Origin: Actinomycetes bacterium
GTDB lineage: Bacteria; Actinomycetota; Actinomycetes; S36-B12; CAIYMF01
Length of the DNA: 64,000 nt
Assembly: GCA_029781935.1 (NCBI GenBank)
Contig: JAKOVT010000077.1
Location: 1 to 64,000, forward strand
Reading direction: 5' to 3'
Positions 47,843 through 61,443 of the stretch are shown here, in pieces. Both the position numbers and the translations under genes were made by a program. Each line of letters opens with the position of its first letter. Positions within the stretch are counted from its first letter, which is position 1. The notes under the pieces are model-generated. The model saw only the letters and a program-made list of their open reading frames with translations, did not search any database and was not told the origin of the DNA.

Positions 47843-47872
47843 CGAGCCGCCGGCCTCCGGGCCGGCGGCTCG
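47843..47872 (+). terminator. Strong hairpin terminator candidate
   Basis: CGAGCCGCCGGCC-TCCG-GGCCGGCGGCTCG, perfect 13-bp stem with 4-nt loop, about 40 nt after the lipoprotein stop. Confidence 0.7.
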
Positions 47873-47942: not shown

Positions 47943-50900
47943 GTGCCGAAGGCACTCCTCGTGAACGGACAGACCCGACCCTTCGCGCGCGGCCGTCGCG
48001 GCCGCGCGATCCTCCAGGTCATCGCGCTGACGATGCTCGCCGTGCCGGCGAGCACCATTCCCGTCGACGGCCCCGCGCGCATCGCCGGGGCCGACCCGGC
48101 GCCGGCACCGACCAACGTCACGAAGACGACGGCGGGGGCGCTCACGGCCGGCACGGTCCCCGACGGCGTGTGCAAGGCGACCGTCACCGCGGTCGGCGGT
48201 GGCGGCGCGAGCTCGTCGGCCGCCACCGGCGCCTCCGGTCTCGGCGGCTCGGGGGCGAGCATCACCGCGACGTTCCGCGTCGTCCCCGGTCAGAGCTACG
48301 GGGGCACCGTCGGCGCGGGGGCCGCGGCCCCGACCGCCGGCGCATCCGGAACCGCTCCCGGCGGCGCCGGTGACGGCTCCGGTGGCGCGGGCGGGACCAT
48401 CGTCAGCGACCACCGCGGCGGTGGTGGCGGTGGCGGAACGTCGGTGAGCTTCGCCGGCACCAAGGTCCTCGTCGCCGGTGGTGGCGGTGGTGGCGGCGCG
48501 GCCCACCAGACCACGCCGGTCGGAGTCGGCGCCGCCGGCGGCGGCGGGTTCACCGGCATCGGCGCGGGTCTGGTCGCGATCGGCGGCACCGGGAACAGCG
48601 GGAGCGACGGCACGAACACCGTCACCGGCGGCACCGGTGGCCAGGCGGCCGCGGGTGGCGCGGGCGGTACGAACTCCGGCAGCGCGTCGTACAACGGCGT
48701 GGCGGGAACGGCCGGCGGGAACGGCGGCAACGGCGGGCCCGACCAGAACTACGACAGCGGTGGTGGCGGCGGTGGCGGCTTCACCGGCGGCGGGGGCGGC
48801 GCGTCCACGGTCGGCCAGTCACTCACGGGTGGTGGCGGTGGGGGCGGGGCCAGCTGGGTCCGGGGCACCTCGGTCGACGCCGCGGCGACGGTGCCGACGG
48901 GCATCACCGGGGCGAGCGGACCGGCGACGCCGACCGGGACCGCGGCCGGCAACACCGGCTCGATCGCGATCACCTGGCTCCCCTGCCAGTACGACCTCGC
49001 ACTGACCAAGACCGTCTCCCCGGCGTCGGTCAACGCGGGCGGCAAGGCCACGTGGACCGTGACGGTCAAGAACAACGGCCCCGACGTCATGACGCGGGGC
49101 GACACGGTGACCCTCACCGACACGCTCCCCGCCGGCCCGAACGGCGCACCGACCCCGGCGTACAAGGTCACCGGCTTCACCGTCACCGCGGGCACGAGCT
49201 CGGGGGGCCTCGCATCGGGCACCCTCACGTGCTCGGGCGTCACGGTGGGCTCGGCCATGCCGTCGAGCACCACCTGCTCGCGCGCCTACAGCGCGCCCGG
49301 CGCCGGCGGTGCGCCGAGCGGCAGCACCCGCGGCCTCGACGTCGGCGAGCAGATCACGATCACGTACGAGCAGGTGATCTCGAGCCAGGCCGGCTGCAGC
49401 ACGATCACGAACACCGCGACGGTCAAGGACCGCCCGGGCTCCACGTTCACCCCCACCACCGACACGGTGAACACGCCGCTGACGATCAACTGCTACGACC
49501 TCGCGGTCACCAAGAGCGCGGCGGTCTCCACCGTCGAGGCCGGTCAGTCGGTCACGTGGACCGTCACGGTGACCAACAACGGTCCCGGGCCGATGAGCGG
49601 ACCGGACGACACGATCACGAATCCGCTGATCGTCACCGAGACGTTCCCGGGCTCGGGCGTCGGGACGTCCACCCTCACCGGCTCGACCGGTGGCGCCGGC
49701 ACCTGCACCCTCGTGACGAGCACGGTCACGTGCACCGCGGGCCTCGCCGCGGGCGCGAGCCAGACCCTCACGTTCTCCACGCCCGTGAACGCGGGCACTG
49801 CGAACAACACCGTCCTCACGAACACCGCGACCGTCACCGACTTCAAGAGCGGTGACAGCAACGACAGCGCGTCGGCCAGCGTGACGGTGAAGGCCAAGCC
49901 GACCCTCAACCTGGCGAAGAGCGTCGTGTCCCGCGCCAACGCGGCCGACCAGTTCACCGTGGCGATCAAGAACGGGGCCACGACCACCGCGTCGGCCACG
50001 ACCAGCGGCGCCGGCACCAGTGCCTCGACCGGCGCGACGACCCTTTCGTCGGGCACCACCTACACGCTCACCGACGCGATGGCCGCGGGCTCGACCTCGG
50101 TCATCGGGCAGTACACGAAGTCGATCAGCTGCTCGAACAGCACTGCGGGCTCCGCCACGGTGCTCCCGAGCGGCGCCGGTACGAGCTTCACCGTGACCCC
50201 GCAGGCCGGTGACGCGATCACCTGCACCTACTCGAACTCCCCGACGCCGCCGACCCTCACCCTCGCCAAGTCGGTGAGCAGTCGTTGGAACGCGGCCGAC
50301 CAGTTCACCGTGGCGATCAAGAACGGTGCGACGACCACGGCGTCCGCGACGACCAGCGGGACCGGCACGAGCGCCACGACCGCGGCGACCGCCGTCACCG
50401 CCGGCACGACCTACACGCTCACCGAGGCCATGGCCGCGGGCTCGAGCTCCACGCTCGCCGACTACACGGGCTCGATCGCCTGCACGAACGCGACCACCGG
50501 GACCGGCACGACGCTGCCGAGCGGCACCGGGACCAGCTTCTCGATCACGCCCGCCGCCGGCGACGCGATCACCTGCACCATCACCAACGCGCCGGGCCCG
50601 CACCTCACGCTGCTGAAGAGCGTGGGATCGCGCGTGGTCGCGGCCGACCAGTTCACGGTCGCGGTCAAGAACGGCGCGACCACCGTGAGCTCGGGCACCA
50701 CGACCGGCACGGGCACGAGCGCGTCGACCGGCTCGACCGCGCTGGCGGCCGGCACCACCTACACGCTGACCGACGCGATGGCCGCCGGTTCCACGTCGAC
50801 CACCTCCGACTACCTGAGCTCGATCAGCTGCTCGAACACCGCGTCGGGGTCACCGACCACCCTGCCGAGCGGCAGCGGCACCAGCTTCTCGGTCACCCCC

Positions 50901-53900
50901 ACGACCGGTGACGTCATCACGTGCACGATCACCAACACCGCCAAGCCGCACATCACGTTCGTGAAGTCGATCGCCTCGCGCTTCGCGGCGGCCGACCAGT
51001 TCACGGTGTCGATCACCCACGGGGCCACGACGGACGCGAGCGCGACCACCAGCGGCACCGGCGCGACGGCGACGACCGGCTCGACCGCGCTGACCGCCGG
51101 AACGACCTACTCCCTGTCCGAGGCGATGGCGGGCGGTTCCAGCTCCGCGCTGTCCGACTACCTCGGCTCGGTCAGCTGCACCAACACCGCCTCCGGATCC
51201 TCCACGGTCCTGCCGAACGGCACCGGGACGAGCTTCTCGGTGATCCCGGCCAACGGCGACAACATCACTTGCACCCTGACCAACACCTCCCGGCCGCACC
51301 TGACCCTGAACAAGTCCATCACCGCGCGCGCCAACTCGGCCGACCAGTTCGTCATCCAGGTCAAGAACGGCGCGTCACTGATCAACGCCGCGACGACGAC
51401 CGGCACCGGGACGACCACCTCGACCGGCGCGACCAACCTGGCCACCGGCACCTCCTACACCCTCACCGAGGCGATGGCATCCGGTTCCGTGTCGGTCCTC
51501 GGCCAGTACGCCCCGTCGATCGCGTGCAGCAACACCGCGAGCGGCTCCTCGACCGTCCTGCCGAGCGGGAGCGGCACGTCGTGGACGGTGACGCCGCTCA
51601 GCGCCACCGACAACATCACCTGCACGATCACGAACACGCCGGGCACGGCGTCCCTGGGTCTGACCAAGAGCGCGTCACCCTCGAGCGGCGTGAACGTCGG
51701 CGCGACCGTGACGTACACCTACGGCGTCACCAACACCGGCACGCTCCCGCTGACCAACGTGACGGTCACCGACCCGCACACGGGCCTGTCGGCGATCACG
51801 TGCTCCCCGGCGCAGGGCTCGACCCTCGCGGCCGGCGCCACGATGTCCTGCACCGCGACGTACACGGTCACCCAGACCGACGTCGACGCCGGCTCGATCG
51901 TCAACATCGGCACGGTGACGGGCAAGGATCCGTCGAACAACACGGTGACGAAGATCGCGGGCGCGACGGTGACCGCCGCGCAGAGCGCCTCGTTCGCGCT
52001 GTCGAAGTCGGCGAGCCCGAGCACCGGCGTGGTCGCCGGTGACACCGTGACCTACACGATCTCCGGGAGCAACAACGGAACGGTCACGCTCCACAGCGTC
52101 AGCGTGAGCGACCCGCTCGTCAGCGGCCTCAGCTGCACGCCGACCACTCCCGCGACGCTCGCCCCTGCGGCCACCATCAGCTGCACCGGCACCCACGTGG
52201 TCACCCAGGCCGAGGTCGACGCGGGCAGCTTCGTCAACACCGCGACCATCAGCGGCCTGTCGCCGAGCAACACGCCGGTCGCCAAGACCGCGACCGCGAC
52301 GGTGACCGCGAGCGCCGCCTCGTCGTTGTCCCTGACCAAGTCGGCGACCCCCACGTCGGGTGTCGTCGCCGGCGACAGCGTCGGCTACACGATCTCCGGT
52401 CGCAACACCGGCGCCGTGACCCTGCACAACGTGACCGTGAGCGACCCGCTCGTCAGCGGCCTCACCTGCACGCCCGCCGCCCCCGCGACGCTCGCCCCCA
52501 ACGCCACCATCAGCTGCACCGGAACCCACGTGGTGACCCAGGCCGAAGTCGACGCGGGCAGCTTCGTCAACACCGCCACCATCAGCGGGCTCACACCGAC
52601 CAACGGGCCGGTGAGCAAGACCGCGAACGCCACGGTCACCGCCGCCACCACCGCCTCGCTCTCGCTCACCAAGTCGGCAAGCCCGAACAGCGGCGTGGTC
52701 GCGGGCAGCACCGTGACCTACACGATCTCCGGCCGGAACACGGGAGTGGTCACGCTCCACAACGTGGCCGTGAGCGACCCGCTCGTCAGCGGGCTGTCCT
52801 GCACCCCGACGACGCCCGCGACGCTGGCTCCCAACGCCACCATCAGCTGCACCGGCACCCACGTGGTGACCCAGGCCGAGGTGAACGCGGGCAGCTTCGT
52901 CAACACCGCCACCGTCAACGGCCTCACCCCCACCAACGCGCCGGTCAGCAAGACGGCCAGCGCCACTGTCACGGCCACGCAGACCGCGTCACTCGGTCTG
53001 ACCAAGGTCGCGACGCCGAACACCAACGTGGTGGTGGGTGACGTCGTCACCTACACCTACACCGGCTCGAACACGGGCACGGTCACGCTCCACAACGTGA
53101 CGGTCACCGACCCGCACGCCGGCCTCTCGACGATCGGCTGCACTCCCGCCGCGCCGGCGACGCTCGCGCCGAACGCGACGATCAGCTGCACCGCGACCTA
53201 CACCGTCACCCAGGCCGACGTCGATGCCGGCAGCATCGTGAACACCGGCACGATCAGCGGGCTCGACCCGGCCAACGCCGCGGTCAGCAAGACCGCGGGC
53301 GCGACGGTGACGCCGCGGCAGAACGCGTCGCTCAGCCTCACCAAGACCGCGTCGCCGAACGCCAACGTCGTGGCCGGCACCGTGGTCACCTACTCGTTCG
53401 CCGGGCGCAACACCGGTGACGTCACGCTCCACCACGTGGGCGTGACCGACCCGATGAGCGGCCTCTCCGGCGTGAGCTGCAGCCCGGCCGCGCCGGCGAC
53501 GCTCGCGCCGAACGCGACCATCGCCTGCACCGCGACCTACACGGTCACCCAGGCCGACGTCGACGCCGGCTCCATCCACAACACCGCGACGATCTCCGGC
53601 CAGACCCCCGCCAACGTGCTGGTGAGCGCCTCCGGCGCGGCCACCGTCGGCGCCGACCAGACCGCGAGCCTCGGGCTCACCAAGACCGCCACCCCCGCCA
53701 CCGGCGTGGTGGCCGGCGACACGGTCACCTACACGATCACCGGGACCAACACCGGCACGGTGACGCTGCACAACGTCACCGTCAGTGACCCGTTCGCCGG
53801 CGCGCTCAGCTGCGCGCCGGTCCCGCCGGTGTCGCTCGCGCCGACCGCGACGATCACGTGCACCGCCACGCACGTCGTGACCCAGGCCGAGGTCGACGCC

Positions 53901-56900
53901 GGCAGCTTCGTCAACACCGCCACGATCAGCGGTCTCTCGCCGACCAACGGCCCCGTGACCAAGAACGCCTCGAAGACGGTCACGGCGAACCAGACCGCGA
54001 CGCTCGGCCTCACCAAGTCGGCGACGCCGAGCAGCAACGTGGTCGCCGGTGACGTCGTCACCTACGCGTTCCACGCCACCAACACCGGCACCGTCACGCT
54101 CCACAACGTGGCCGTCACCGACCCGATGAGCGGCCTCTCCGCGGTGAGCTGCACCCCGGCTGCGCCCGCCACCCTCGCCCCCGGCGCCGCGATCGACTGC
54201 ACGGCCACCTACACCGTGACCCAGGCCGACGTCGACGCCGGCAGCATCCACAACACCGCCACGGCGAGTGGGCTGTCGCCCGCGAACGCACCCGTCACGA
54301 CCAACGCCTCGAAGACCGTGACCGCGAAGCAGGTCGCGAGCGTCGGCTTCGTGAAGTCGGGCACGCCCGACGGCGTCGTGGCCGGCCAGGTCGTCACCTA
54401 CACGCTGACCGGCACCAACACCGGCACCGTGACCCTTTACCACGTGACCGTGACCGACCCGATGAGCGGCCTCTCCGCGGTCGCCTGCGTCCCGGCGGCA
54501 CCGGCGACCCTCGCCCCGGGCGGGACGATCACCTGCACCGCGACGTACACCGTCACCCAGGCCGACGTCGACGCCGGCAGCATCGTGAACACCGCGACGA
54601 TCCACGGGCTCGACCCGGGCGACACGCCGGTCACGAAGTCCGCGGGCACGACCATCCACGCCGACCAGGTGGCGAGCCTCGCGTTCACCAAGACCGCGTC
54701 ACCGAACAACAACGTGGTCGCCGGTGACGTCGTCACCTACACGTTCCACGGCACCAACACCGGCACGGTCACCGTCCACCACGTGACCGTCACCGACCCG
54801 ATGAGCGGCCTCTCGGCGATCACCTGCCTCCCGGCCGCGCCCGCCACCCTCGCGCCGAACGCGACCATCACCTGCACCGCCACCCGCACGGTCACGCAGG
54901 CCGACGTCGACGCCGGCAGCATCGTGAACACCGCGACCGTCGGCGGGCTCGACCCGAACGGCACCCCGGTCACCCAGACCGCGTCGACGACGGTCACCGC
55001 CGACCAGTCGGCCGGCCTCGCGCTCACCAAGACCGCGTCGCCGACCAGCGGGGTCGTCGCCGGGGACGTCGTCACGTACTCGTTCCACGGCGCCAACACC
55101 GGCCACGTGACGCTGCACGGCGTGACGGTGACCGACCCGATGGGCGGCCTCTCGGCGATCACCTGCACGCCGGGCGCGCCCGCCACCCTGGCGCCGAACG
55201 CGACGATCGACTGCACCGCGACCTACACGGTCACCCAGGCCGACGTCGACGCCGGCTCGATCGCGAACACCGCGACCGTCAGCGGGCGGACGCCGGGCAA
55301 CCTGCCGGTAAGCCAGGACGCGGCGGCGACCGTGACCGCCGACCAGGCCGCGTCGCTCTCGCTCACGAAGACCGCGTCGCCCGACACCGGCGTCGGCGCC
55401 GGTGACGTCGTGACGTTCTCGATCCACGGCGCCAACACCGGCAGCGTCACCCTGCACGGCGTGCACGTGACCGACACGCTCCCGGGCGTTTCGGCGCTCG
55501 CGTGCAGCCCGACCCTGCCCACGAGCCTCGCCCCCGGCGCCACCGTGGACTGCACCGCCACGTACACGATCGCCCAGGCCGACGTCGACGCCGGTGGCCT
55601 CACCAACCACGCCGACGTCACCGGCCTCGACCCGTCGGGCGCGACCGTCACCCAGGGCGCCGACGCGACCGTCTCGGCCCTGCAGGTCGAGTCGCTGGGG
55701 CTCACGAAGACCGCGTCGCCGACCGGCGGCGTGGTCGCCGGCGACGTCGTCACCTACACCTTCACCGCCACGAACACCGGCACGGTCACGGCCCACTCGG
55801 TCACCGTCAGCGACCCGATGCCGGGCCTGTCCCCGCTCACCTGCTCACCCGCGGCGGGCGCCGCGCTGGCGCCCCTCGGGACGATGGCCTGCACCGCGAC
55901 CTACACGGTCACCCAGGCCGACGTCGACGCCGGCAGCATCGTGAACACCGCGGGCGTCCTCGGCACCGCGCCGAACGGCGACCCGATCGGTGACACCGCA
56001 GGCGCGACGGTCACCACCGCCTCGAGCTCCGACCTCACGTTCTCGAAGTCGGCGACGCCGGTGACGGGAGTCGTGGCGGGCGACGTGGTCACGTACTCGT
56101 TCCACGGCACGAACACCGGTGCGGTGACGCTCCACGGCGTGACCGTGACCGACGCGATGCCCGGCCTCTCGGCGATCGGCTGCACCCCGGCCGCGCCGGC
56201 GCACTTGGCCCCGGGCGCGTCGATCGACTGCACGGCGACCCACACGGTCACCCAGGCCGACGTCGACGCCGGCACGATCCAGAACACCGCGACGCTGAGC
56301 GGGCTCACGCCCACCAACGTCCCGGTGACCCGGAACGCGTCGTTCACCGTGACGCCGTCGCACGCGGCCGGCCTCTCGCTCACCAAGAGCGCGTCGCCGA
56401 GCAGCGGCGTGGTCGCCGGCGACGTCGTCACGTACACGATGACCGCGACCAACACGGGGGCGACGACCCTCGACCCGGTCACCGTCAGCGACGGGCTCGT
56501 CGGCATGTCGCCGCTCTCGTGCACGCCGGCCAACGGCTCGGGCCTCGCCCCCGGCGCCTCGATCACCTGCACCGGCGACGACACGGTCACCCAGGCGGAC
56601 GTCGACGCCGGCAGCATCCACAACACCGCAGACGTCACCGGTCTCGACCCGTCGTCGAACCCGGTGCACGCCACGGCCACCGCGACGGTCACCGCGCAGA
56701 CCACCAACAGCCTCGGGTTCACCAAGACCGCGTCCCCGAGCTCGGGCGTCGTGGCGGGTGACGTCGTGACCTACACCTTCACGACGCACAACACCGGCAC
56801 CACCACCTTGCACGCGGTGGCGGTCACCGACCCGAAGCCGGGCCTCTCGGCGATCACCTGCACGCCGGGCGCGCCGGCGATGCTCGCTCCCGGCGCCACC

Positions 56901-58883
56901 CAGACCTGCACCGCCACCTACACCGTGACCCAGGCCGACGTCGACGCCGGCTCGATCACCAACACGGCGACGGCGCACGCGACCCCGCCGGTCGGTGGCC
57001 CGTTCACCCAGCCCTCGACCGCCACCGTCACCACCGACACGAGCGCCGGACTCGGCTTCACCAAGACCGCGTCACCCACCTCGGGCGTGAAGGTCGGCGA
57101 CGTCGTCACCTACACGTTCACCGGCACCAACACCGGCTCGGTGTCGGTCCACGGCGTCACGGTCACCGACCCGATGAGCGGCCTGTCCGCGATCTCGTGC
57201 ACGCCGGCGACCCCGGCGACGCTCGCGCCGAACGCGACGATCACCTGCCACGCCACCCACACGGTCACGCAGGCGGACGTCGACGCCGGCTCGATCGTGA
57301 ACACCGCGACGATCGGCGGGCTCGACCCGTCGGGCGCGCCGGTGACGAACACGGCCGGTGCGACCGTCACCACCGACAACTCGGCGAGCATCGCGTTGAG
57401 CAAGGCGGCGACGCCGACCAGCAACGTCGGACTCGGCGACGTCGTCACCTACACCATGACGGCCACGAACACCGGCTCGGTCTCGCTGCACGGCGTGACC
57501 GTGACCGACCCGATGCCGGGCCTCTCGGCGCTCACCTGCACGCCGGCGGCAGGCGGGACGCTGGCCGCCGGTGCCACCATGACCTGCACCGCCACGCACA
57601 CGGTCACGCAGGCCGACGTCGACGCCGGCACCATCGTCAACACGGCGACGGTCGACGCGCTCGATCCGCAGAACGTCCCGGTGAACGACAGCGCGAGCCG
57701 CACGGTCCTCGTCGGCCAGCGCTCGAGCCTCTCGCTCGTGAAGACGGCCGCCCCGGCGGTCGACGTCGGCGCGGGCGACACCGTCACCTACTCGTTCCTG
57801 GTCACCAACACCGGCAGCGTCTCGGCGCACGACGTGGTCGTCACCGATCCGATGCCCGGCCTCTCGGCGCTCACCTGCACCCCGGCGGCGCCTGCGGTGC
57901 TGAGCCCCGGCGCCACGATGACCTGCACCGCGACCTACGTCGTCACCCAGGCCGACGTGAACGCCGGCTCGATCGTGAACACCGCGACCGCGAGCGGGCT
58001 CGACCCCGCGAACAACCCGGTGGCCGACTCGGCGAGCGCCACGGTCACCGCGAACCAGGTCACCGCGCTCTCGTTCACCAAGACCGCCGCGCCCGCGACC
58101 GGGGTCAAGCCCGGTCAGGTCGTCACCTACACCATGACCACGCGCAACACCGGCACGGTGACGGTCGACAACGTGACGATCGCCGACCCGATGCCCGGCC
58201 TCTCGCCGCTCGACTGCACGCCGGCCCAGGGCGCGAGCCTCGCCCCTGGCGCCTCGATGACCTGCACGGCCACCTACACGGTGACCGCGGCGGACGTCGA
58301 CGCCGGTCGCATCGACAACACCGCGACGGTGTCGGGCGACAGCATCAACGGCCACCCGGCGTCCAACGCCTCGACTGCGATCGTCCCGACCGCCACGAGT
58401 GCCGACGTCGACCTGAGCAAGAAGCTGGCGAGCAGCGCCGACGGCGTGGCGACCTGGGTCCTCACCGTGACCAACACCGGCACCGGGCCGTACCCGGGTC
58501 CGTTCACGGTCACCGACCCGCTGCCGGACGGCCTGCTCTTCCAGTCCGCCGCCGGCGACGGGTGGGCGTGCACCGGCACCACGACGATCAGCTGCACGCA
58601 CACCGACGCCCTCCCCGTGGGCGGCGCCGCGAGCGTCACGATCGTCACGCAGGTCACCGGCTCCGGCTCGATCACCAACACCGCGTCGATGGACGTGGGC
58701 GGCAAGGCGGTCGAGTCGGCGGCGAAGGTCCCGGCGCCGACCGGTGGGTTCGCGTTCACCGGCGCCGAGGCCGAGCGCTACGCCCTCGTCGGCCTCTTCC
58801 TGATCCTCGCCGGCTGGTTCGTCGTGTTCACCTCCCGAAAGAAGCGTCACACCCTGAGCCGCCCGGACACCGACAGATTCTGA
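47943..58883 (+). CDS. Giant (3646 aa) repetitive surface protein: Gly-rich domain, DUF11-like domains, 5x ~117-aa repeats, ~20x ~111-aa DUF11/DUF7507-like repeats, C-terminal FAFTG-TM-RKKR anchor
   Basis: Single uninterrupted frame of 10.9 kb; signal-like N-terminus; repeated xLTKTASPxxGVVAGDVVTYTFxxxNTGTVTLHxVTVTDPMxGLSAITCTPAAPATLAPxATxxCTATYTVTQADVDAGSIVNTAT; C-terminus FAFTGAEAERYALVGLFLILAGWFVVFTSRKKR. Confidence 0.93.
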   Translation: MPKALLVNGQTRPFARGRRGRAILQVIALTMLAVPASTIPVDGPARIAGADPAPAPTNVTKTTAGALTAGTVPDGVCKATVTAVGGGGASSSAATGASGLGGSGASITATFRVVPGQSYGGTVGAGAAAPTAGASGTAPGGAGDGSGGAGGTIVSDHRGGGGGGGTSVSFAGTKVLVAGGGGGGGAAHQTTPVGVGAAGGGGFTGIGAGLVAIGGTGNSGSDGTNTVTGGTGGQAAAGGAGGTNSGSASYNGVAGTAGGNGGNGGPDQNYDSGGGGGGGFTGGGGGASTVGQSLTGGGGGGGASWVRGTSVDAAATVPTGITGASGPATPTGTAAGNTGSIAITWLPCQYDLALTKTVSPASVNAGGKATWTVTVKNNGPDVMTRGDTVTLTDTLPAGPNGAPTPAYKVTGFTVTAGTSSGGLASGTLTCSGVTVGSAMPSSTTCSRAYSAPGAGGAPSGSTRGLDVGEQITITYEQVISSQAGCSTITNTATVKDRPGSTFTPTTDTVNTPLTINCYDLAVTKSAAVSTVEAGQSVTWTVTVTNNGPGPMSGPDDTITNPLIVTETFPGSGVGTSTLTGSTGGAGTCTLVTSTVTCTAGLAAGASQTLTFSTPVNAGTANNTVLTNTATVTDFKSGDSNDSASASVTVKAKPTLNLAKSVVSRANAADQFTVAIKNGATTTASATTSGAGTSASTGATTLSSGTTYTLTDAMAAGSTSVIGQYTKSISCSNSTAGSATVLPSGAGTSFTVTPQAGDAITCTYSNSPTPPTLTLAKSVSSRWNAADQFTVAIKNGATTTASATTSGTGTSATTAATAVTAGTTYTLTEAMAAGSSSTLADYTGSIACTNATTGTGTTLPSGTGTSFSITPAAGDAITCTITNAPGPHLTLLKSVGSRVVAADQFTVAVKNGATTVSSGTTTGTGTSASTGSTALAAGTTYTLTDAMAAGSTSTTSDYLSSISCSNTASGSPTTLPSGSGTSFSVTPTTGDVITCTITNTAKPHITFVKSIASRFAAADQFTVSITHGATTDASATTSGTGATATTGSTALTAGTTYSLSEAMAGGSSSALSDYLGSVSCTNTASGSSTVLPNGTGTSFSVIPANGDNITCTLTNTSRPHLTLNKSITARANSADQFVIQVKNGASLINAATTTGTGTTTSTGATNLATGTSYTLTEAMASGSVSVLGQYAPSIACSNTASGSSTVLPSGSGTSWTVTPLSATDNITCTITNTPGTASLGLTKSASPSSGVNVGATVTYTYGVTNTGTLPLTNVTVTDPHTGLSAITCSPAQGSTLAAGATMSCTATYTVTQTDVDAGSIVNIGTVTGKDPSNNTVTKIAGATVTAAQSASFALSKSASPSTGVVAGDTVTYTISGSNNGTVTLHSVSVSDPLVSGLSCTPTTPATLAPAATISCTGTHVVTQAEVDAGSFVNTATISGLSPSNTPVAKTATATVTASAASSLSLTKSATPTSGVVAGDSVGYTISGRNTGAVTLHNVTVSDPLVSGLTCTPAAPATLAPNATISCTGTHVVTQAEVDAGSFVNTATISGLTPTNGPVSKTANATVTAATTASLSLTKSASPNSGVVAGSTVTYTISGRNTGVVTLHNVAVSDPLVSGLSCTPTTPATLAPNATISCTGTHVVTQAEVNAGSFVNTATVNGLTPTNAPVSKTASATVTATQTASLGLTKVATPNTNVVVGDVVTYTYTGSNTGTVTLHNVTVTDPHAGLSTIGCTPAAPATLAPNATISCTATYTVTQADVDAGSIVNTGTISGLDPANAAVSKTAGATVTPRQNASLSLTKTASPNANVVAGTVVTYSFAGRNTGDVTLHHVGVTDPMSGLSGVSCSPAAPATLAPNATIACTATYTVTQADVDAGSIHNTATISGQTPANVLVSASGAATVGADQTASLGLTKTATPATGVVAGDTVTYTITGTNTGTVTLHNVTVSDPFAGALSCAPVPPVSLAPTATITCTATHVVTQAEVDAGSFVNTATISGLSPTNGPVTKNASKTVTANQTATLGLTKSATPSSNVVAGDVVTYAFHATNTGTVTLHNVAVTDPMSGLSAVSCTPAAPATLAPGAAIDCTATYTVTQADVDAGSIHNTATASGLSPANAPVTTNASKTVTAKQVASVGFVKSGTPDGVVAGQVVTYTLTGTNTGTVTLYHVTVTDPMSGLSAVACVPAAPATLAPGGTITCTATYTVTQADVDAGSIVNTATIHGLDPGDTPVTKSAGTTIHADQVASLAFTKTASPNNNVVAGDVVTYTFHGTNTGTVTVHHVTVTDPMSGLSAITCLPAAPATLAPNATITCTATRTVTQADVDAGSIVNTATVGGLDPNGTPVTQTASTTVTADQSAGLALTKTASPTSGVVAGDVVTYSFHGANTGHVTLHGVTVTDPMGGLSAITCTPGAPATLAPNATIDCTATYTVTQADVDAGSIANTATVSGRTPGNLPVSQDAAATVTADQAASLSLTKTASPDTGVGAGDVVTFSIHGANTGSVTLHGVHVTDTLPGVSALACSPTLPTSLAPGATVDCTATYTIAQADVDAGGLTNHADVTGLDPSGATVTQGADATVSALQVESLGLTKTASPTGGVVAGDVVTYTFTATNTGTVTAHSVTVSDPMPGLSPLTCSPAAGAALAPLGTMACTATYTVTQADVDAGSIVNTAGVLGTAPNGDPIGDTAGATVTTASSSDLTFSKSATPVTGVVAGDVVTYSFHGTNTGAVTLHGVTVTDAMPGLSAIGCTPAAPAHLAPGASIDCTATHTVTQADVDAGTIQNTATLSGLTPTNVPVTRNASFTVTPSHAAGLSLTKSASPSSGVVAGDVVTYTMTATNTGATTLDPVTVSDGLVGMSPLSCTPANGSGLAPGASITCTGDDTVTQADVDAGSIHNTADVTGLDPSSNPVHATATATVTAQTTNSLGFTKTASPSSGVVAGDVVTYTFTTHNTGTTTLHAVAVTDPKPGLSAITCTPGAPAMLAPGATQTCTATYTVTQADVDAGSITNTATAHATPPVGGPFTQPSTATVTTDTSAGLGFTKTASPTSGVKVGDVVTYTFTGTNTGSVSVHGVTVTDPMSGLSAISCTPATPATLAPNATITCHATHTVTQADVDAGSIVNTATIGGLDPSGAPVTNTAGATVTTDNSASIALSKAATPTSNVGLGDVVTYTMTATNTGSVSLHGVTVTDPMPGLSALTCTPAAGGTLAAGATMTCTATHTVTQADVDAGTIVNTATVDALDPQNVPVNDSASRTVLVGQRSSLSLVKTAAPAVDVGAGDTVTYSFLVTNTGSVSAHDVVVTDPMPGLSALTCTPAAPAVLSPGATMTCTATYVVTQADVNAGSIVNTATASGLDPANNPVADSASATVTANQVTALSFTKTAAPATGVKPGQVVTYTMTTRNTGTVTVDNVTIADPMPGLSPLDCTPAQGASLAPGASMTCTATYTVTAADVDAGRIDNTATVSGDSINGHPASNASTAIVPTATSADVDLSKKLASSADGVATWVLTVTNTGTGPYPGPFTVTDPLPDGLLFQSAAGDGWACTGTTTISCTHTDALPVGGAASVTIVTQVTGSGSITNTASMDVGGKAVESAAKVPAPTGGFAFTGAEAERYALVGLFLILAGWFVVFTSRKKRHTLSRPDTDRF
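49900..51645 (+). repeat. 5 tandem coding repeats of ~117 aa (SpaA/prealbumin-like by appearance)
   Basis: Copies begin PTLNLAKSVVSR, PTLTLAKSVSSR, PHLTLLKSVGSR, PHITFVKSIASR, PHLTLNKSITAR, each followed by xADQFxxxxxxGA. Confidence 0.85.
51646..58390 (+). repeat. About 20 tandem coding repeats of ~111 aa (~334 bp) of DUF11/DUF7507-like type
   Basis: Counted by the recurring L(T/S)K(T/S)A(S/T)P...NTG...DP...TVTQADVDAGSIVNTAT pattern. Confidence 0.88.
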
Positions 58884-58906
58884 GCCGCCCGGACACCGAC
58901 AAATTC
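58855..58906 (+). repeat. 26-bp tandem duplication spanning the stop codon of the giant gene
   Basis: TGAGCCGCCCGGACACCGACAGATTC (58855-58880) and TGAGCCGCCCGGACACCGACAAATTC (58881-58906), one mismatch. Confidence 0.95.
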
Positions 58907-58986
58907 TGAGCCGCCCGGACGTCCCGGCACCGGACTGATAGCCCGGTACCGGGACTCCCGGCGACGAGCGCTCTTGGAGCGGCTCA
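58907..58986. repeat. ~80-bp palindromic element, copy A
   Basis: Ends TGAGCCGC/GCGGCTCA; inner stem 58921-58933 / 58943-58955 around loop ACTGATAGC. Confidence 0.9.
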
Positions 58987-58998
58987 GCCATCAAACCC

Positions 58999-59076
58999 TG
59001 AGCCGCCCGGACGTCCTGGCGCCGGACTGATAGCCCGGTGCCGGGACTCCTGGCAGTCGACGCCTGGAGCGGCTCA
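58999..59076. repeat. ~78-bp palindromic element, copy B
   Basis: Same ends and loop as copy A; inner stem 59013-59025 / 59035-59047. Confidence 0.9.
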
Positions 59077-59083
59077 GCCATCG

Positions 59084-59121
59084 CGCGTTCCGGTGACCCG
59101 CTGGAGGGGTCCCGGAACGCG
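59084..59121. promoter_or_regulatory. Bulged hairpin upstream of the sulfatase gene
   Basis: CGCGTTCCGG(T)GACCC - 7-nt loop - GGGTCCCGGAACGCG; 15 bp with one bulged T. Confidence 0.55.
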
Positions 59122-59151
59122 GGATGCGCAGTGGCCGTAACCTCCGCGCTC

Positions 59152-61443
59152 ATGACTGAGTTCGGCGGCGTGATCGGTGACAGCTGGCGGGAGTCGACGG
59201 CGTGGTGGCCGCCGGATCCGGAACCGCCCGCGGGCGCGCCCAACGTCGTGCTGATCGTGCTCGACGACGTCGGCTACGCCCAGCTCGGCTGCTACGGCTC
59301 CGACATCGCGACGCCGGTGATCGACGGACTGGCCGACGGTGGTGTCCGCCTCACCCGGTTCCACACCACCGCGCTCTGCTCCCCCACCCGTGCGTGCCTG
59401 CTCACCGGGCGCAACCACCACTCCAACGGCATGGCACGCGTCGCCGACCTCGCCGTCGGCTTCCCCGGGTACAACGGCATCATCCCGCGGGAGAACGGCT
59501 TCCTCTCCGAGATCCTCGCGACGCACGGCTACGTGCCCCTCGCGGTCGGCAAGTGGCACCTCACCCCGCAGGACGAGATCCACTTCGCCGCGCCACGCGA
59601 TTCGTGGCCGTGCGGACGCGGGTTCCGCCACTGGTACGGGTTCCACGGCGGTGAGACCCACCAGTTCGTGCCGAGTCTCTTCCGCGACCACACCGCGATC
59701 CGGCCCCTGGCGACGCCGGCCGAGGGGTACCACCTCACCGAGGACCTCGCCGACCAGGCGATCGGGATGCTCCACGCGCTGCGGTCGGCCGAGCCCGACG
59801 CGCCGTTCTACCTCCACTTCGCGACGGGTGCCTGCCACTCGCCGCACCACGCGCCCGAGGAGTACCGCGAGCGGTACCGCGGTCGGTTCGACGACGGATG
59901 GGACGTCTGGCGCGAGCGCACGTTCGCGCGTCAGCAGACCATGGGACTGCTGCCGGAGGAGACCACGCTGTCGCCCCGGCCCCACTGGGTGCCGGCGTGG
60001 GACGACCTCGAGCCGGAGGACCGCGCGGTCGCCGCCCGGTTCATGGAGTGCTTCGCCGCGTTCCTCAGCCACACCGACGAGCAGATCGGCCGGGTGCTCG
60101 ACGCGATCGAGGCGCTCGGGGAGATGGAGAACACCATCGTCGTGCTCGTCTCCGACAACGGCGCGTCGTCCGAGGGCGGCGTGCTCGGATCGATCAACGA
60201 CGCGCGCATATGGAACGGCGTGCCCGCGGGCCCGAACGAGCTCCGCCGCCGCATCGACGAGATCGGCACCGAGACCGCCCACAACAACTACCCCTGGGGC
60301 TGGACCATGGCGGGCAACACGCCGTTCCGGCGCTGGAAGCGGGAGGTGCACGAGGGTGGGATCGCCGATCCGTGCATCCTGCACTGGCCGCGCGGGATCG
60401 CGGCACGCGGCGAGCGACGATCGCAGTTCGCGCACGCCATCGACGTCCTGCCGACGCTGCTCGAGCTGATCGGCGTCGACCCGCCGGCCGAGCTCGCCGG
60501 CGTTCGCCAGTCGCCGATCGAGGGCACGAGCTTCGCCTACCTCCTCGACGCGCCCGACGCGCCCGAGCGCCACACCACCCAGTACTTCGAGATGCTCGGC
60601 TCGCGCGGCATCTACCACGAGGGATGGAAGGCGGTGACGTTCAAGCCGCTCGGCGCGATGTACGACGACGGCCTCGATCCCGACGCGCCGTTCGCCGACG
60701 ACGAGTGGGAGCTCTACGACGTGCGCGTCGACCCGACCGAGACGCGCGACCTCGCCGCGGAGGAACCCGAGCGGCTCGCCACCATGATCGACCTCTGGTG
60801 GACCGAGGCCCGGCGGTACCAGGTCCTCCCGCTCGACAACCGGCCCGTCGCCGCGCTCCTCTCGCCCCGACGACCGTTCCAGGACCGGACGTCGGCGATC
60901 TACCGCCCGTCGGACCAGTGGGTGCCGGAGGAGAACGCGATCAACGTGCGGGCCCGCACGCACGAGCTGCGCGCGCACCTCACCGTCGAACTCGAGGGCG
61001 GCCCCCCCGAGGGCGTCCTGCTCGCGATGGGGACGGTGCTCGGCGGCTGGTCGTTCCACCTGCTGGACGGCCGTCCGCGCTACGTCTCCAACTACGTCGG
61101 CCGCGACACCTACGTCGTGACCGCGGAGGAGGCCGTGGGGCCCGGCGCGCACGTGGTCACGATGCGCTTCGACGCACGACCCGACCTCTCGGGCACCGTC
61201 CACCTGCTCATCGACGGGCGCGAGGTGGGCACCGGCGAGGTTGCCCGCACCACGCCCGTCCGCCACTCGATCGCGGGCGGTGGGATCACCTGCGGCTGGG
61301 AACAAGGGCCGCCGGTCGGTCCCGGCTACGCCGCGCCGTTCGAGTGCACCGCGCGCCTCGACCGCGTGGAGGTCGAGGTCCTCACCGCCGCCCCGCCCGT
61401 CGACCCCGAGGCGCACCTCGCCGCGGTCATGGCCGAGCAGTAG
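59152..61443 (+). CDS. Arylsulfatase-type sulfatase
   Basis: NVVLIVLDDVGYAQLGCYGSDIATP, LCSPTRACLLTGRNHHSNGM (CxPxR), VVLVSDNGASSEGG. Confidence 0.95.
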   Translation: MTEFGGVIGDSWRESTAWWPPDPEPPAGAPNVVLIVLDDVGYAQLGCYGSDIATPVIDGLADGGVRLTRFHTTALCSPTRACLLTGRNHHSNGMARVADLAVGFPGYNGIIPRENGFLSEILATHGYVPLAVGKWHLTPQDEIHFAAPRDSWPCGRGFRHWYGFHGGETHQFVPSLFRDHTAIRPLATPAEGYHLTEDLADQAIGMLHALRSAEPDAPFYLHFATGACHSPHHAPEEYRERYRGRFDDGWDVWRERTFARQQTMGLLPEETTLSPRPHWVPAWDDLEPEDRAVAARFMECFAAFLSHTDEQIGRVLDAIEALGEMENTIVVLVSDNGASSEGGVLGSINDARIWNGVPAGPNELRRRIDEIGTETAHNNYPWGWTMAGNTPFRRWKREVHEGGIADPCILHWPRGIAARGERRSQFAHAIDVLPTLLELIGVDPPAELAGVRQSPIEGTSFAYLLDAPDAPERHTTQYFEMLGSRGIYHEGWKAVTFKPLGAMYDDGLDPDAPFADDEWELYDVRVDPTETRDLAAEEPERLATMIDLWWTEARRYQVLPLDNRPVAALLSPRRPFQDRTSAIYRPSDQWVPEENAINVRARTHELRAHLTVELEGGPPEGVLLAMGTVLGGWSFHLLDGRPRYVSNYVGRDTYVVTAEEAVGPGAHVVTMRFDARPDLSGTVHLLIDGREVGTGEVARTTPVRHSIAGGGITCGWEQGPPVGPGYAAPFECTARLDRVEVEVLTAAPPVDPEAHLAAVMAEQ

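Follow-up and report, generated by a model that had tools for sequence, protein, structure and literature searches.

Two palindromic elements of about 80 bp, A and B, lie downstream of a giant surface-protein gene of an Actinomycetes bacterium. It is questioned here whether they represent a dispersed mobile element, a structured element under selection, or an ordinary feature of a gene end. The window analyzed is a stretch of 64,000 nucleotides (contig JAKOVT010000077.1, GenBank assembly GCA_029781935.1), to which the coordinates refer unless another contig is named. All features of the A/B locus are described on the plus strand.

Structure of the locus and folding of the elements

The giant gene (47943..58883) encodes a protein of 3646 aa, based on the ORF list, Pfam and a codon-based gene call. 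According to Pfam, the protein contains DUF7507, DUF11 and SpaA-type repeats, and its C-terminus consists of a membrane helix and a basic tail. About 20 DUF7507, 17 DUF11 and 5 SpaA_3 stretches were counted. The same genome carries a paralogue with an open frame of 2924 aa (contig C333, L087), and G011 and G002 also have related giant genes. A perfect 13-bp hairpin without a T run (47843-47872; CGAGCCGCCGGCC-TCCG-GGCCGGCGGCTCG) lies in the gap that separates the giant gene from the gene before it.

Element A (58907..58986), element B (58999..59076) and a third strong hairpin, C (59079..59128; CGCGTTCCGG...CCGGAACGCG), are all located between the stop codon of the giant gene (58883) and the start of a downstream sulfatase gene (59152..61443; Pfam PF00884). 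A begins about 23 bp past the stop codon. B is a tandem copy of A with a start-to-start distance of 92 bp. Hairpin C is absent from the first-pass annotation, and its sequence is unrelated to that of A and B.

The alignment of A and B has 80 columns, 67 of which are identical. The ends TGAGCCGC/GCGGCTCA are identical, and the loop ACTGATAGC is common to both copies. The point differences are four transitions (columns 19, 23, 42 and 53), and there is a divergent 13-nt patch (columns 57-69), including a 2-nt gap. The differences are thus concentrated in the patch (9/13 columns vs 4/67 elsewhere). The coordinates of both copies, their common ends and loop and the differences in their arms are as the first-pass annotation had described them, and the repeat search likewise found no third full copy in the window.

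Both elements fold stably. As plus-strand RNA, A reaches -47.6 kcal/mol (z -4.5 against dinucleotide shuffles) and B, folded from 59000, reaches -51.9 kcal/mol (z -5.3). As minus-strand RNA, the values are -62.2 kcal/mol (z -7.7) for A and -50.0 kcal/mol (z -4.8) for B. These energies are equalled by no dinucleotide shuffle on either strand. The fold of hairpin C has -42.2 kcal/mol (z -6.6). The column-by-column check also reproduced the strand-specific pairing reported earlier. The plus-strand RNA of A contains a single C-A mismatch (columns 22/42), and that of B pairs fully with two G-U pairs (columns 19/45 and 23/41). At the same positions, the minus-strand RNA has a G-U pair in A, which pairs fully, and two A-C mismatches in B, which does not.

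This retained foldability had been interpreted as selection on structure, an interpretation that the comparison of the two copies does not support. The stem changes between A and B are three, all of them transitions and all one-sided; compensatory changes, in which both sides of a pair are replaced, are zero. In the tally of pairs, which is based on two copies only, there are no both-sided changes, two one-sided changes and one pair broken in one copy. When a G-C or A-T pair undergoes a transition, one strand is left with G-U and the opposite strand with A-C, and thus selection is not needed for strand-specific folding. That each copy pairs on one strand can be a chance outcome of the drift of a duplicated perfect palindrome.

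Local duplication and search for further copies

The first 14 bases of the elements, TGAGCCGCCCGGAC, are present in four direct copies at 58855, 58881, 58907 and 58999 (spacing 26, 26 and 92). These four are the only exact copies in the whole genome. The region 58855-58906, missed by the first-pass annotation, consists of two 26-bp tandem units whose left ends match those of A and B. Partial unit 1 (58855..58880; TGAGCCGCCCGGACACCGACAGATTC) is in the reading frame and lengthens the C-terminus of the giant protein (...KKRHTLSRPDTDRF), encoding most of the protein tail (LSRPDTDRF). The giant gene ends at the stop codon TGA that forms the first three bases of partial unit 2 (58881..58906). The locus therefore illustrates a repeat unit that spills into coding sequence and supplies the stop codon. 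The proteins of related giant genes end in ...GSRRRASEED (the paralogue, L087) and ...RVARTRR (a relative, L084), which suggests that the original giant gene may have ended near KKRH.

One GC-rich hairpin has been duplicated locally and in tandem to give A and B. The divergent patch could reflect relaxed constraint on the side arm. It is also explicable by one event. A carries CGCTC-TTG-GAGCG, a small quasi-palindrome of a kind made by template switching, and the sequence resembles a copy that may have arisen in this way from its own 3' arm.

The host genome is a draft of 517 contigs and 4.17 Mb, with 95.65% completeness. No second locus was found in it with BLAST, pattern searches or a covariance model. 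The confident covariance-model matches were A and B alone, and the weaker ones were the reverse strands of A and B. With one mismatch allowed, the loop core has no match in the host genome beyond the A/B locus. The left-arm 14-mer with up to two mismatches has 172 matches vs 144 for the reversed control. A zero result obtained in the host genome with the pattern GGCGGCTC, a mistyped form of AGCGGCTC, was disregarded.

Searches of 166 genomes from the order and 395 from the class found no recognisable copies. Relatives (L010-L028, L037-L043, L081 and L082) gave weak matches with BLAST and the covariance model. The inspected ones are short, unrelated and mostly coding, and were rejected as none of them has the anatomy of the element. 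In 85,000 species genomes, the 17-mer core has 26 matches, vs about 30 expected by our estimate. They are from unrelated organisms, and their flanking sequences are unrelated to the element. Plasmids and phages contain no match to the element. The first pattern scan of viral contigs yielded no matches, and five matches obtained with later patterns were rejected because they are unrelated sequences without a covariance-model match. In Rfam 15, every family is under its gathering threshold; the best match, a plant-type microRNA model that scored 26.6 bits where 124 are required, was taken as chance.

The search for other copies in this genome and its relatives, which had been proposed as a check, thus leads to a single locus. 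By the reasoning of the first-pass annotation itself, a pair with neither further copies nor covariation is reduced to a local duplication. Neither was found, and A and B are one local duplication within the limits of the draft assembly, in whose gaps further copies may have been lost.

Hairpins and promoters around genes of the host genome

Hairpin statistics were obtained from 161.7 kb, comprising the entire contig that contains the window and six further contigs, with our own codon-based gene calls. Hairpins with a stem of at least 10 bp were considered strong. Intergenic regions, which constitute 9.6% of this DNA, contain 13 of the 22 strong hairpins (binomial P about 1e-8). Eleven of these 13 are located 3' of a gene, and none of the 13 is followed by a T run. 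The intergenic enrichment, mostly 3' of genes and without T runs, indicates that U-less hairpins are usual at gene ends in this genome, a class that A, B and C resemble. Another hairpin, a perfect one of 20 bp at 18689-18732 of L075, is flanked by two convergent genes and is likely to be a bidirectional terminator without a T run.

Over the window plus 98 kb from other contigs, 16 of the 27 TANNNT boxes within 45 nt are positioned 6-8 nt before start codons (P about 6e-12). This clustering indicates frequent leaderless transcripts in the genome, and the pattern matches the leaderless-gene signal described for Actinobacteria (PMC3160421). The sulfatase gene has the sequence TAACCT (59138..59143) 8 nt ahead of its ATG, a putative -10 box of a leaderless-type promoter. 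Its transcript is therefore likely to start 3' of the hairpins. Together with the clustering of TANNNT boxes, this position makes it most likely that the hairpins belong to the giant gene, as part of its 3' UTR, rather than to a leader of the sulfatase gene.

The most likely explanation, with a probability of about 0.68, is that the locally duplicated A and B constitute, together with C, a U-less terminator or mRNA-3'-end hairpin cluster in the giant gene's 3' UTR. The cluster would terminate transcription of the 11-kb mRNA upstream of the sulfatase gene or protect the end of this mRNA, and the sulfatase gene would be transcribed separately from its own -10 box 3' of the hairpins. A terminator or processing signal had been among the options of the first-pass annotation. 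The 3' position, the common occurrence of hairpins 3' of genes and the apparent sulfatase promoter speak for it. On the other side, a T run follows neither A (next bases GCCATCAAACCC), nor B (GCCATCGCGCG), nor C, and a simple terminator scan detected no canonical (L-shaped) terminator. As further counterpoints, the GC-rich DNA of the host genome folds well at many places, and the ends of related giant genes (L087 and L084) have no hairpin cluster. Neither a hairpin array behind related giant genes nor conserved synteny with the sulfatase gene was found.

U-less "I-shaped" terminators are reported to be predominant in mycobacteria, with Rho-dependent termination dominant overall (PMC12288462). 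The same paper cites work for and against the need for a U tract, including Czyz et al., and termination by U-less hairpins alone is disputed. Hairpin clusters soon after the stop codon are reported to be common termination units, and poly A/U trails are not necessary according to a section heading of the paper (PMC8355165). In Streptomyces avermitilis, Term-seq revealed weaker 3' ends where U is lacking (PMC8780764). The general picture is unchanged by the present locus, and A and B look ordinary for a GC-rich bacterium. If confirmed by RNA ends, they would add one more case, in which duplicated U-less hairpins end an unusually long mRNA of such a bacterium.

Alternative readings and known systems

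The second hairpin, and even the first, could be a functionless by-product of neutral replication slippage at a palindrome, between the short direct repeats CTGAGCCGCCCGGAC. The tandem periods of 26 bp and 92 bp, which have their left end in common, are consistent with such an origin, as are the zero compensatory changes between A and B and the lack of conservation of the element in relatives. However, strong hairpins are enriched intergenically and mostly 3' of genes, so that a use for at least one of the copies is likely, and this reading is considered rather unlikely. It is very unlikely that A and B are a cis-regulatory RNA for the sulfatase gene, a tandem riboswitch or leader in which the conserved loop and the variable side arm form a ligand-binding fold. 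The ends, the stem and the loop are kept while the 13-nt patch diverges, and the sulfatase gene is directly downstream, as expected for such an RNA. Against this, the -10-like box implies that the sulfatase mRNA is probably leaderless and starts past the hairpins, and no Rfam family reaches its gathering score. Sulfatase homologues in the genus are only 41-51% identical, nothing element-like was found in the genus, and the divergent patch can be one event, the putative template-switch copy in A.

A shade less probable again is that A and B are two tandem copies of a dispersed non-autonomous mobile element or REP/MITE-like palindromic element, as the first-pass annotation had considered. The palindromic ends, the length of about 80 bp and the tandem order resemble REP doublets, and repeats are often lost from draft assemblies such as this one. 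Nevertheless, the element occupies one locus in the host genome and was not found in the order and class genomes, and its core motif is at about chance level in the species genomes. The Y1 transposase (PF01797) was undetected in the host genome at its given completeness, whereas control genomes were positive, and a target-site duplication was not recognised by eye. The single locus and the undetected transposase weigh against this option. The least probable of the readings is a lineage-specific structured RNA or DNA element with unsequenced relatives, characterized by the conserved ends, the common loop and a free side arm. Examples would be a tandem regulatory RNA or an array of protein-binding palindromes. 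A hairpin of a diversity-generating retroelement was considered and set aside, because the giant gene ends in a membrane anchor and not in a variable repeat.

Three known systems can be compared with the hairpin cluster. Like REP/BIME sequences with RAYT transposases, A and B are short palindromic intergenic units, doubled here. Unlike them, they are present at only one locus of the 517-contig draft, without dispersed copies, and no cognate Y1 (IS200-like/RAYT) transposase was matched in the genome. With integron attC sites, they share an imperfect palindrome, single-strand folding and a short array, but the R boxes RYYYAAC / GTTRRRY of attC sites are absent from 58840-59160. The U-less "I-shaped" or clustered terminators of high-GC bacteria (PMC8355165, PMC12288462) are similar in sequence and fold, being strong GC-rich hairpins, tens of bases past the stop codon, several in a row and T-less. 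In contrast to these terminators, A and B are tandem copies of each other, and they carry an outer stem and a side arm and are longer (78-80 nt).
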